From positions 186,001 to 250,000 of the forward strand of contig NZ_JAFBGL010000007.1 in the NCBI RefSeq assembly GCF_016811075.1: a stretch of DNA of 64,000 nucleotides. The letters are read 5' to 3'. Below the pieces are notes generated by a model. That model was not told the origin of the DNA. It searched no databases and saw only the letters and a list, made by a program, of their open reading frames with translations. Both the position numbers and the translations under genes were made by a program. Positions 1 through 2,425 of this stretch are shown here, piece after piece. Position 1 is the first letter of the stretch, and each line of letters opens with the position of its first letter. The stretch comes from Oceaniferula flava. GTDB lineage: Bacteria > Verrucomicrobiota > Verrucomicrobiia > Verrucomicrobiales > Akkermansiaceae.

Positions 1-841
1 AGGCCGCGATGAGGTCCTTTTCCAAGCGCACGGCAGTCACCATGTATTCGGTGAGCTCGGCCTTGAAGGAATCGGTCCAGATGTCCGGGTTCTCGCCGAC
101 CATTTCCTGCAGCAGCTGATCGAACAGGCTGAGGCGGAAGGTGATATCGCCGATGAGTTTGTTGAAGACCTTGCCGGTGCCGGGGGTTTTGTTCTGTGCG
201 GAGAGTGAGAACAACGAGGCCCAGAGCGCGAAGCACTGGGTGCCTTCCATGCACTGGTTGATCAGGAAAATGTTCCGTGCCACCGCCTGCTTGTTAGCTG
301 TAGTGGTGGTATCGGTGTTGCGGTTCAGCGGGCTGAGCTTGGAGGTGACGAAGTCCTTCTTAGCATTGATCGCCGGAATGTCGGCCAGCTCGGCGCACTC
401 CATCGGGTTGATTCTCAGCGAGCCGTGCAGGTGCACCAGCACATCGCTGCGGGTGTTCTCCTCGTGGACAAAACGACCGAAAACCAGCTTCAGCTCAGGC
501 GCGGTGACCAGATCACGCACGGTGTAGATGCCGTGCGACTGGAACAGCTCCTGCGAGCGGGCAAAAGCACCGAGGGCGGTCTTGTAAAGCATCTGGCAAG
601 ACGCGCCGAGGTTCCCCCACTGCGCGGCATCCGTGTTCATCGCCACCTCGGCAGGCTCCCAGTGGGAGTTCTTCATCTCCTTGTAGAGCGCGTAGGCCCA
701 GTTGTATTTCAGCGGCAGAATGTTGAAAAACATCGAATTTCGGCCGTTGAGCACTTTTTTAGCCGCGTAGGCCTCCTCGGCCTTCTCGCGATCGAGATTG
801 AATGTACGTTCTCCGAGAGTGATTGTGATGGTGTCAGCCAT
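1..841 (-). CDS. Ribonucleotide reductase small-subunit (R2/NrdB) homologue with degenerate metal site, 3' end outside window
   Basis: I translated the minus strand from the ATG at 841; 280 residues are visible and the C-terminus lies beyond base 1. The fold signature is that of class I R2 proteins: NWAYALYKEM (47-56), HWEPAEV (60-66), TAPE (113-116), CMEG (197-200) and ENPDIWT near 247. By spacing to Chlamydia-type R2 the six metal-ligand positions read Q97, E128, R131, E199, I233 and R236, so only two carboxylates remain and both His ligands are Arg. The radical Tyr/Phe position is Leu135. Normal R2 proteins use a di-metal site to generate a radical for the large subunit; this one probably cannot in the usual way. 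It may be a metal-free R2, a regulatory paralogue or a decaying copy. The reading frame is intact, which argues against decay. The family assignment is strong; the function is open. Confidence 0.85.
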   Translation of the reverse strand, partial: MADTITITLGERTFNLDREKAEEAYAAKKVLNGRNSMFFNILPLKYNWAYALYKEMKNSHWEPAEVAMNTDAAQWGNLGASCQMLYKTALGAFARSQELFQSHGIYTVRDLVTAPELKLVFGRFVHEENTRSDVLVHLHGSLRINPMECAELADIPAINAKKDFVTSKLSPLNRNTDTTTTANKQAVARNIFLINQCMEGTQCFALWASLFSLSAQNKTPGTGKVFNKLIGDITFRLSLFDQLLQEMVGENPDIWTDSFKAELTEYMVTAVRLEKDLIAA

Positions 842-1203
842 GATATAAGGGTGAAAAGTGGGGGGAAAGATACTGAAAATGTGGCGGAAATGCGGTGGGT
901 TTGAGCGCGCTTTTCTGGGAAGTTCGCTCAGTCGCGAAGCCTTGCGATAGTGACCGAAAATGGCTCAAATGGTCAATTCAAATCTGTCCATATGGTATCC
1001 ACAAATTATTAACAACCCCACATGTTGTGGTTTTGTCCCATTTCCATAAAAATGACAATTTCCCTTGAGAAACCCCCAGCCCTAGGGAATCAACCACTTC
1101 GAAGCATTTCTATCCGACTTCATACTGACGCGACACCCAAGCGCTGGGGCTCAAAAAAATTGGAGCACCTAACTGCAACTGACGTGGCTGGCCCAGATTT
1201 TAA

Positions 1204-1575: not shown

Positions 1576-2295
1576 TTAGCTGGAACGACGGCGGAAGCCG
1601 AGCGCTGCAAGCAGGGTCAAACCGAGCACGGAAGTTGTCGATGGCTCTGGAACTGCGCGAACTTGAATGGCATTCAGCTGAGGAGAGCTCGAGCTCGAAG
1701 TCATCACGAGATCTTCTGTGGTCCCGCTGGCGATGAAGGTTCCGAGCGCATACTGCCCCAAGCCACCTTGAGTATCCACCGGGGTGTAATCCGCGGTGAC
1801 CTCGTTGCTCCCGTTCAGCGTGATTTCACGGTTATCGCGGCCGCTGCGTGAATCGTTGAACCAGACTTGCACTTCATAGGCTTGTCCAATCGTCAAATTA
1901 CCAAGAGTCACCGTTATGGCATCACCGGAGTTAACGTAAATCGCGCTATCCAAGAGGTGCTTGTAGTCGGTCGAGAGTTCGTTCCATGGCGATGCCGTCC
2001 CACCGTTGAAGGCAGATGCGTGGTATGCAACCAATGTGTCACTGGTGAGATCCCCGGAGCCGATATTCTGAGAGCCGGCATTATGAGTGGGTGATCCCCC
2101 GAGGAAAAGGACACCATTCACCGTGGCATCGGTATTATTGAGCGCATAGGCATACTCCAAGGTGCCCGAGGTGGAAACATCGGACACGGCATCGGTGATA
2201 TACTGCGGCGACTGCCAAAGAATGGCTGCAGAAAGAGGAAGGGCGCTGGCCAGCATGGCCGCGCATAGGGTGGGTAAGAGAGGTCTGGCTTTCAT
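1576..2295 (-). CDS. Secreted PEP-CTERM domain protein
   Basis: The start is placed at the ATG at 2295, giving 239 residues, because it opens a normal signal peptide (MKARPLLPTLCAAMLASALP); a longer frame to 2400 has no such feature. The C-terminus carries VPEPSTTSVLGLTLLAALGF followed by RRRSS: the VPEP motif, hydrophobic helix and basic tail recognised by exosortase-type systems, which process proteins for the cell surface or exopolysaccharide. The body is Gly/Ser/Thr/Asn-rich, looks like a beta-sandwich (for example QVWFNDSR), and has no catalytic motif I recognise. No exosortase gene lies in the window. It is transcribed alone, with a strong hairpin after it. Its function is unknown; surface display is inferred from the sorting tail. 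Confidence 0.85.
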   Translation of the reverse strand: MKARPLLPTLCAAMLASALPLSAAILWQSPQYITDAVSDVSTSGTLEYAYALNNTDATVNGVLFLGGSPTHNAGSQNIGSGDLTSDTLVAYHASAFNGGTASPWNELSTDYKHLLDSAIYVNSGDAITVTLGNLTIGQAYEVQVWFNDSRSGRDNREITLNGSNEVTADYTPVDTQGGLGQYALGTFIASGTTEDLVMTSSSSSPQLNAIQVRAVPEPSTTSVLGLTLLAALGFRRRSS

Positions 2296-2398
2296 TATGA
2301 TCGAATGGTTAATCTTGGACCAAACAGTATATCTCACCATCTGGAGGCACCCAAGGTTAAACGCTAGTATGACACAGAGTGAAGGCAGTAGATGACAC

Positions 2399-2425
2399 AA
2401 GCCGCAGGCTGGTCACCTGCGGCTT
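2399..2425 (-). terminator. Hairpin terminator of the VWA operon
   Basis: AAGCCGCAGG (2399-2408) pairs with CCTGCGGCTT (2416-2425) around a 7-base loop. It lies 66 bases past the stop of the leftward gene ending at 2491. The T-tract on the minus strand is poor (TTGTGT). Confidence 0.55.

Follow-up and report, generated by a model that had tools for sequence, protein, structure and literature searches.

The gene at the left edge of the analysed Oceaniferula flava DNA, termed nrdX here, probably encodes a non-catalytic partner (beta-prime) of the class I ribonucleotide reductase (RNR) small subunit, which would form a heterodimer with NrdB, the product of the adjacent gene. On the basis of comparisons between sequences, we give this reading a probability of about 70%. 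As judged from the aligned genes, what is conserved across nrdX is the loss of the cofactor and of the radical relay, together with the retention of an NrdA-type tail. If this reading is true, bacteria would have arrived independently, starting from a Chlamydia-type R2, at the beta-beta-prime design of the yeast and apicomplexan enzymes, which has hitherto been described in yeast and malaria-type parasites but not in bacteria.

Fold, ligand positions and C-terminus of NrdX

The window, i.e. the whole stretch of 64,000 nucleotides that was analysed (G000:C7:186001-250000), cuts the gene, and the open reading frame 841..1 on the reverse strand runs open off its left edge. Read beyond this edge, the complete nrdX gene (G000:C7:185783-186841) encodes 352 amino acids and ends with ...SFDDDDL (Table 1). 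The frame is undisrupted throughout; a disruption in the missing C-terminus, which the original prediction had named as evidence against it, is absent. In a profile search, NrdX matched the Pfam family Ribonuc_red_sm (PF00268) with 135.6 bits at a cut-off of 33.6; ten of ten nrdX orthologs matched the family too (the Rfam search gave no match). The AF2 model of the protein (mean pLDDT 80) aligned with Chlamydia NrdB (4d8g) over 311 residues with a Z-score of 34.8 and an rmsd of 3.4. By profile and by fold, NrdX is a member of the ribonucleotide reductase small chain family with the ferritin-like R2 fold. Among relatives in the PDB, Chlamydia R2 was matched with an E-value of 8e-29 and yeast Rnr4 (1jk0_B) with 1e-11; R2c of Chlamydia trachomatis (NrdB, class Ic) is among the nearest solved relatives of NrdX and NrdB alike. 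In the model of the lone NrdX chain, confidence was low at residues 7-44 and weaker at residues 110-130, as would be expected for segments whose folding depends on a partner.

Table 1. Positions of nrdX, its diagnostic codons and associated elements. Coordinates refer to the window unless a contig or locus is named.
Feature	Position	Strand	Remarks
nrdX, 5' part (280 codons of 352)	1..841	(-)	ATG 841-839; PF00268 135.6 bits; intact orthologs in 14 other genomes
nrdX, last 72 codons and stop	G000:C7:185783-186000		outside the window
Q97 codon, position of ligand 1 (Glu89 in Chlamydia R2)	551..553	(-)	from alignment
E128 to R131 codons, positions of ligands 2 and 3 (Glu120, His123)	449..460	(-)	from alignment
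Leu135 codon, position of the radical Tyr/Phe	437..439	(-)	Leu in canonical R2 of the lineage too
E199 codon, position of ligand 4 (Glu193)	245..247	(-)	sole metal ligand kept in all nrdX
I233 to R236 codons, positions of ligands 5 and 6 (Glu227, His230)	134..145	(-)	from alignment
Codons of residues 108-124 (end of helix B, start of helix C; TAPELKLVFGR)	470..520	(-)	near-invariant in nrdX
Codons of residues 11-57 (N-terminal segment NGRxxMFFNxLPLKY)	671..811	(-)	conserved in nrdX, eroded in paired nrdB
NrdR-box-like pair CCACAACATGTGGGGTTGTTAATAATTTGTGGATACCATATGG, two palindromes with centres 31 bp apart	988..1030	(-)	upstream of nrdX
Tandem R2 pairs of genus g46	L117:3631-6029; L118:7896-10423	(+); (-)	genomes G355 and G440

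Aligned with the canonical R2 next to it, NrdX has Q97, E128, R131, E199, I233 and R236 at the ligand positions and L135 at the radical position, versus E, E, H, E, E and H with Leu at the radical position in the neighbour. These are exactly the residues that had been predicted from the letters alone. The missing Tyr, by contrast, is indeed a Leu but not a peculiarity of NrdX: Leu occupies this position in every canonical R2 examined in the lineage, the catalytic neighbour included (class Ic-like). Since the whole lineage uses Leu there, the absence of the Tyr is uninformative for NrdX. Throughout the orthologs of the genus, and in nrdX of Persicirhabdus, the pattern is Q/E/R/L/E/x/R (x being I, V or T), with E128, R131, E199 and R236 invariant in this set. 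The conservation among relatives, which the original prediction had advised to check, holds for the genus and Persicirhabdus, apart from the variable I233 position, but not for Rubritalea, where the pattern is G/Q/Q/L/E/A/R. None of these relatives has the usual ligands, whose occurrence would have spoken against the original prediction. On these patterns, the Glu/Arg arrangement is a genus-level feature and not a conserved active site.

In all nrdX genes, four to five of the six ligands are missing, while nrdB genes, whether solo or paired with nrdX, retain the ligands and the relay Tyr. This C-terminal radical-transfer Tyr (Tyr356 in E. coli, Tyr338 in C. trachomatis) is missing from every nrdX, whereas all full-length canonical R2 in the alignment have it. 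Invariant in all nrdX are W61, L135, E199, D232 and R236, and in the aligned cross-genus set the tail residues F347, D349, D350, D351 and L352 (F347-x-D-D-D-L) are invariant as well. The tail resembles NrdA-binding ends and is of the same kind as the DDDEL end of the partner; NrdX is predicted to bind NrdA. Judged by its residues, NrdX is not a catalytic class I R2 (Ia-Id), as it has neither the six ligands nor the relay Tyr. With both His replaced and Leu at the Tyr position, it does not belong to class Ie either, and on both points the earlier assessment holds. It likewise differs from R2lox, which has an intact metal site and no R1-binding C-terminus, as in NrdX the ligands are lost and the tail is kept; the R2lox model in NCBIfam gave no match for NrdX.

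Operon structure and occurrence of nrdX

The gene order is nrdX-nrdB-nrdA. nrdX heads the group, nrdB lies approximately 95 bp downstream of it and is followed by nrdA (1087 aa), so that the leftward extension proposed earlier did yield an intact nrdB and an intact nrdA. In all 15 loci, the gap between nrdX and nrdB measures approximately 35-135 bp; in one of them nrdA lies past the contig end. In the partner NrdB, the six ligand positions are occupied by E, E, H, E, E and H and the radical position by Leu; the protein has the relay Tyr and ends in DDDEL. Because its nearest relative in the PDB is Chlamydia R2c (1syy, E 1e-80), and with six ligands around a non-Tyr radical position (E-E-H-L-E-E-H), it can be classified as class Ic-like. 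nrdA encodes the only RNR large subunit of the genome, and no class III RNR (NrdD) was detected in the genome (completeness 98.5%). Hence, the nrdX-nrdB-nrdA operon appears to be the only RNR of this genome. NrdA (L003:5093-8356, reverse strand) contains approximately 170 extra N-terminal residues (1-170) ahead of the sole recognised ATP-cone (174-258), perhaps a degenerate cone. Beyond nrdA and outside the window, two TIR-like genes (L003:3769-5027, reverse strand) matched PADLOC ThsB models (E 3e-43 and 2e-112). They are accompanied by opposite-strand genes for a trypsin-like protease and a hydrolase-like protein and may belong to a Thoeris-like defence neighbourhood. On the other side of nrdX, at window positions 1576-2400 (reverse strand), a secreted protein with the PEP-CTERM-like end VPEPSTTSVLGLTLLAALGFRRRSS is encoded.

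Every locus has the two-palindrome element (43 bp) ahead of nrdX, and most other members of the family have it ahead of solo nrdB, while upstream of paired nrdB it occurred at background level only. The usual spacer of paired NrdR boxes is 15-16 bp (PMC12051234). The spacing of the element fits such paired boxes and suggests binding by NrdR, whose gene was found in the genome. From the position of the element, nrdX has taken over the NrdR-box promoter of the ancestral nrd operon and is the gene nearest to it.

nrdX followed by nrdB is present in 12 of the 14 genomes of the genus, which are all those with an assembled locus; of the two incomplete assemblies that remain, one has a contig break within nrdB and one lacks R2 altogether. 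The gene also occurs in the isolate genomes of Persicirhabdus sediminis, Rubritalea marina and R. profundi and in Akkermansiaceae MAGs (UBA985 and others), but among 388 genomes across the phylum none outside this family was found to carry it. In the family survey, the nrdX profile scored nrdX with 569-678 bits, solo R2 with 405-438 bits and paired nrdB with approximately 348-363 bits, fragments aside. As paired nrdB scored below solo R2, the partner must have diverged too. An nrdX fragment within a 585-aa ORF of a MAG labelled 'Gammaproteobacteria' (L046:1-1755) was rejected: the contig is regarded as chimeric because the reverse strand of the remainder encodes a cardiolipin-synthase-like protein. 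In R. profundi SAORIC-165 (L063:7101-8224), the paired nrdB consists of two overlapping ORFs in different frames which meet near the first ligand, due to either a sequencing error or a real frameshift.

Selection and phylogeny

For close pairs with unsaturated synonymous sites, dN/dS was 0.04-0.08 for nrdX versus 0.01-0.05 for nrdB, and at equal pS the median pN amounted to 0.19 and 0.09, respectively. nrdX is under strong purifying selection, which is about twofold looser than that on nrdB. In a mixture-model tree, nrdX formed one clade (100/100) and paired nrdB another (100/99), the latter nested among the solo nrdB of the family. A joint clade of nrdX and paired nrdB was not rejected (AU p 0.235), the nrdX branch being long and its attachment uncertain; a change of L121 to F is common to both. 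In a quick nrdA tree, the two Rubritalea genomes with the pair grouped with solo Rubritalea; the nrdB genes of these two genomes, however, are members of the paired clade. The conflict implies that nrdX and nrdB have been passed on as one unit, by inheritance or exchange, and independently of nrdA. Movement of the unit may reflect horizontal transfer or differential loss; both fit.

Division of conserved residues between the two R2 copies

The analysis of reciprocal loss was based on 178 positions that are invariant in solo R2 and aligned to nrdX. Eighteen of them are changed in paired nrdB and 83 in nrdX, with three shared versus 8.4 expected (P 0.006, with alignment columns that are not independent). 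The 18 positions lost in paired nrdB cluster at nrdX residues 10-57 and 109-122, and 15 of them are kept in nrdX, for instance K118 and G122 in the near-invariant segment 108-124. Most of this signal originates in the N-terminal block (P 0.4 when only residues above 60 were used), which indicates regional complementarity, not scattered coevolution. NrdX residues 109-122 reach from the end of helix B into the beginning of helix C; these two helices constitute the R2 dimer interface in L. blandensis, the one structure found for which this is stated (PMC6754362). The idea that the N-terminal patch contacts the ATP-cone in a dATP-inhibited ring was dropped, as the beta residue named at that interface in E. 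coli is I297 (PMC11447812).

A second tandem R2 pair, in the order B1-B2-nrdA, was detected in genus g46, which belongs to another family of the class. In the tree, g46 B1 was placed in a different starred clade from paired nrdB, so that the duplications look independent; a shared origin of nrdX and g46 B2 gave AU p 0.17, the long branches leaving it formally possible. g46 B1, the nrdB-like copy, has lost M37, N40, K118, L121 and G122, all of which are lost in paired nrdB too, while B2 keeps them (five shared losses versus 1.0 expected, P 0.001). B2, for its part, has changed 38 positions that nrdX changed as well (22.8 expected, P 1e-6). Both comparisons draw on two g46 genomes and were made post hoc, after the sequences had been seen. 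Both g46 copies retain all ligands, and B2 retains the relay Tyr too. As B2 shows by keeping all ligands, a tandem R2 pair does not have to be split into a catalytic and a non-catalytic copy. The two lineages share a division: the core is retained in one copy, which has lost the patch, while the copy that retains the patch has a loosened core. This split in two lineages is the strongest indirect sign that asymmetric R2 dimers may exist.

Discussion

The earlier suggestion that the gene encodes a structural or regulatory partner of a normal R2 turned out to be the best reading, because nrdX is directly followed by intact nrdB and nrdA genes. According to the model that we favour, NrdX would be catalytically dead and would pair with NrdB as a beta/beta-prime heterodimer. 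The working enzyme would be an asymmetric complex with the metal cofactor in NrdB alone (class Ic-like, with Leu at the Tyr site), from which the radical would be sent to NrdA. NrdX would supply the other half of the dimer, including the putative N-terminal and helix-C surface that NrdB lost, would contribute another tail that docks on NrdA and would probably aid NrdB in folding or metal loading. NrdB, in turn, would depend on NrdX, its homodimer no longer working well. This would be the logic of yeast Rnr2/Rnr4, arrived at independently in bacteria. A stricter version, which we would put at even odds, is an obligate asymmetric alpha2-beta-beta-prime class I RNR in which NrdB no longer homodimerises and activity is confined to the NrdB-NrdX heterodimer, the same surface residues having been lost independently in the second tandem-R2 lineage.

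It is unlikely that NrdX is mainly a regulator which competes with NrdB for NrdA via its tail, or sequesters NrdB, and so lowers RNR activity without being a constitutive part of the enzyme. A conserved tail without the relay Tyr would suit a decoy, and the gene lies in the same operon under putative NrdR-box control. However, being promoter-proximal in an apparently shared transcription unit with nrdB and nrdA, nrdX could not easily be regulated separately; moreover, constraint acts on the whole NrdX domain, not on the tail alone, and nrdB has co-diverged with nrdX. We regard it as less probable still that NrdX helps to assemble the NrdB cofactor, as an assembly factor or chaperone, and departs before turnover. 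The retained NrdA-type tail suggests that NrdX stays in the holoenzyme, although such a role has been proposed for yeast Rnr4 (PMC3824934, PMC2704937), nrdX comes first in the gene order, and by sequence a chaperone is hard to tell from a heterodimer subunit.

There is very little to be said for a protein that has left RNR and acts as a homodimer in an unrelated function: the cofactor site is lost, but the strict linkage to a distinctive nrdB clade, the operon with nrdA and the tail of NrdA type all tie NrdX to this enzyme. Equally improbable is a new radical-generating R2, envisaged in the original prediction, with Glu/Arg salt bridges or a protein radical instead of the metals. The four residues invariant in the genus and Persicirhabdus would accord with it; on the other hand, salt bridges as the defining device do not agree with the G, Q, Q, A and R of the Rubritalea orthologs, the relay Tyr is lost in every ortholog, and the complete catalytic nrdB adjoining nrdX keeps the full cofactor site and relay. 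Decay of an nrdB duplicate, to which the faster evolution of the NrdX protein might point, is refuted by 15 intact full-length orthologs, by dN/dS values far below 1 and by the invariant blocks and tail.

The favoured heterodimer bears on the half-site behaviour of class I RNRs, for which one cofactor or radical per R2 dimer seems sufficient (PMC6754362). Whether the second R2 half is a mere scaffold is hard to test in homodimers. A bacterial enzyme with one genetically dead half, in which the halves are separate genes, would make this question directly testable.

Among known R2 proteins, R2c of Chlamydia trachomatis resembles NrdX in having no radical Tyr, but it is a homodimer with a full Mn/Fe site, whereas NrdX has lost four to five of six ligands. 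Class Ie R2 is metal-free, keeps both His and uses a modified Tyr. Taking the class as described in the original prediction, it shares with NrdX the loss of the metal site, while NrdX has neither the two His nor the modified Tyr nor the relay Tyr. In Candidatus Liberibacter asiaticus, a short nrdB of 125 aa, which arose by recent truncation and shares more than 99% identity with the long copy, has been speculated to form a heterodimer (PMC5154197). Like nrdX it is an extra bacterial R2 without an active site, but it is not a conserved full-length family. For a conserved full-length ligand-less R2 partner in bacteria, no earlier report was found in the literature searched, which lacked most subscription papers.

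The closest parallels are eukaryotic. Apicomplexan R2_e2 is devoid of the C-terminal Tyr and keeps the R1-binding tail, and in Cryptosporidium its gene forms a tandem with that of R2; PfR4 binds both PfR2 and R1 (PMC3824934). R2_e2/PfR4 thus forms, as NrdX does, a second R2 clade with a missing relay Tyr and a conserved C-terminal motif, even though it retains most functional residues and is of class Ia. Yeast Rnr4 (Y4, beta-prime, class Ia) lacks three iron ligands, cannot hold a di-iron centre and activates Rnr2 as a heterodimer, the Rnr4-containing R2 dimer having one cofactor (PMC2704937). Rnr4 and NrdX are both ligand-less R2 paralogs which kept the fold and stand beside a ligand-complete R2, and the co-occurrence of NrdX with such an R2 and one NrdA is what would characterise an Rnr4-type beta-prime. 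What separates them is the apparent origin of NrdX inside Verrucomicrobiota, from a class Ic-like R2 and within a bacterial operon. In trees without yeast sequences, nrdX falls with or beside Verrucomicrobiota nrdB, and being no closer to Rnr4 than to other R2 proteins, NrdX would not belong to the Rnr4 family by descent. On this evidence, NrdX probably works like Rnr4 and R2_e2 by convergence and not by common descent.
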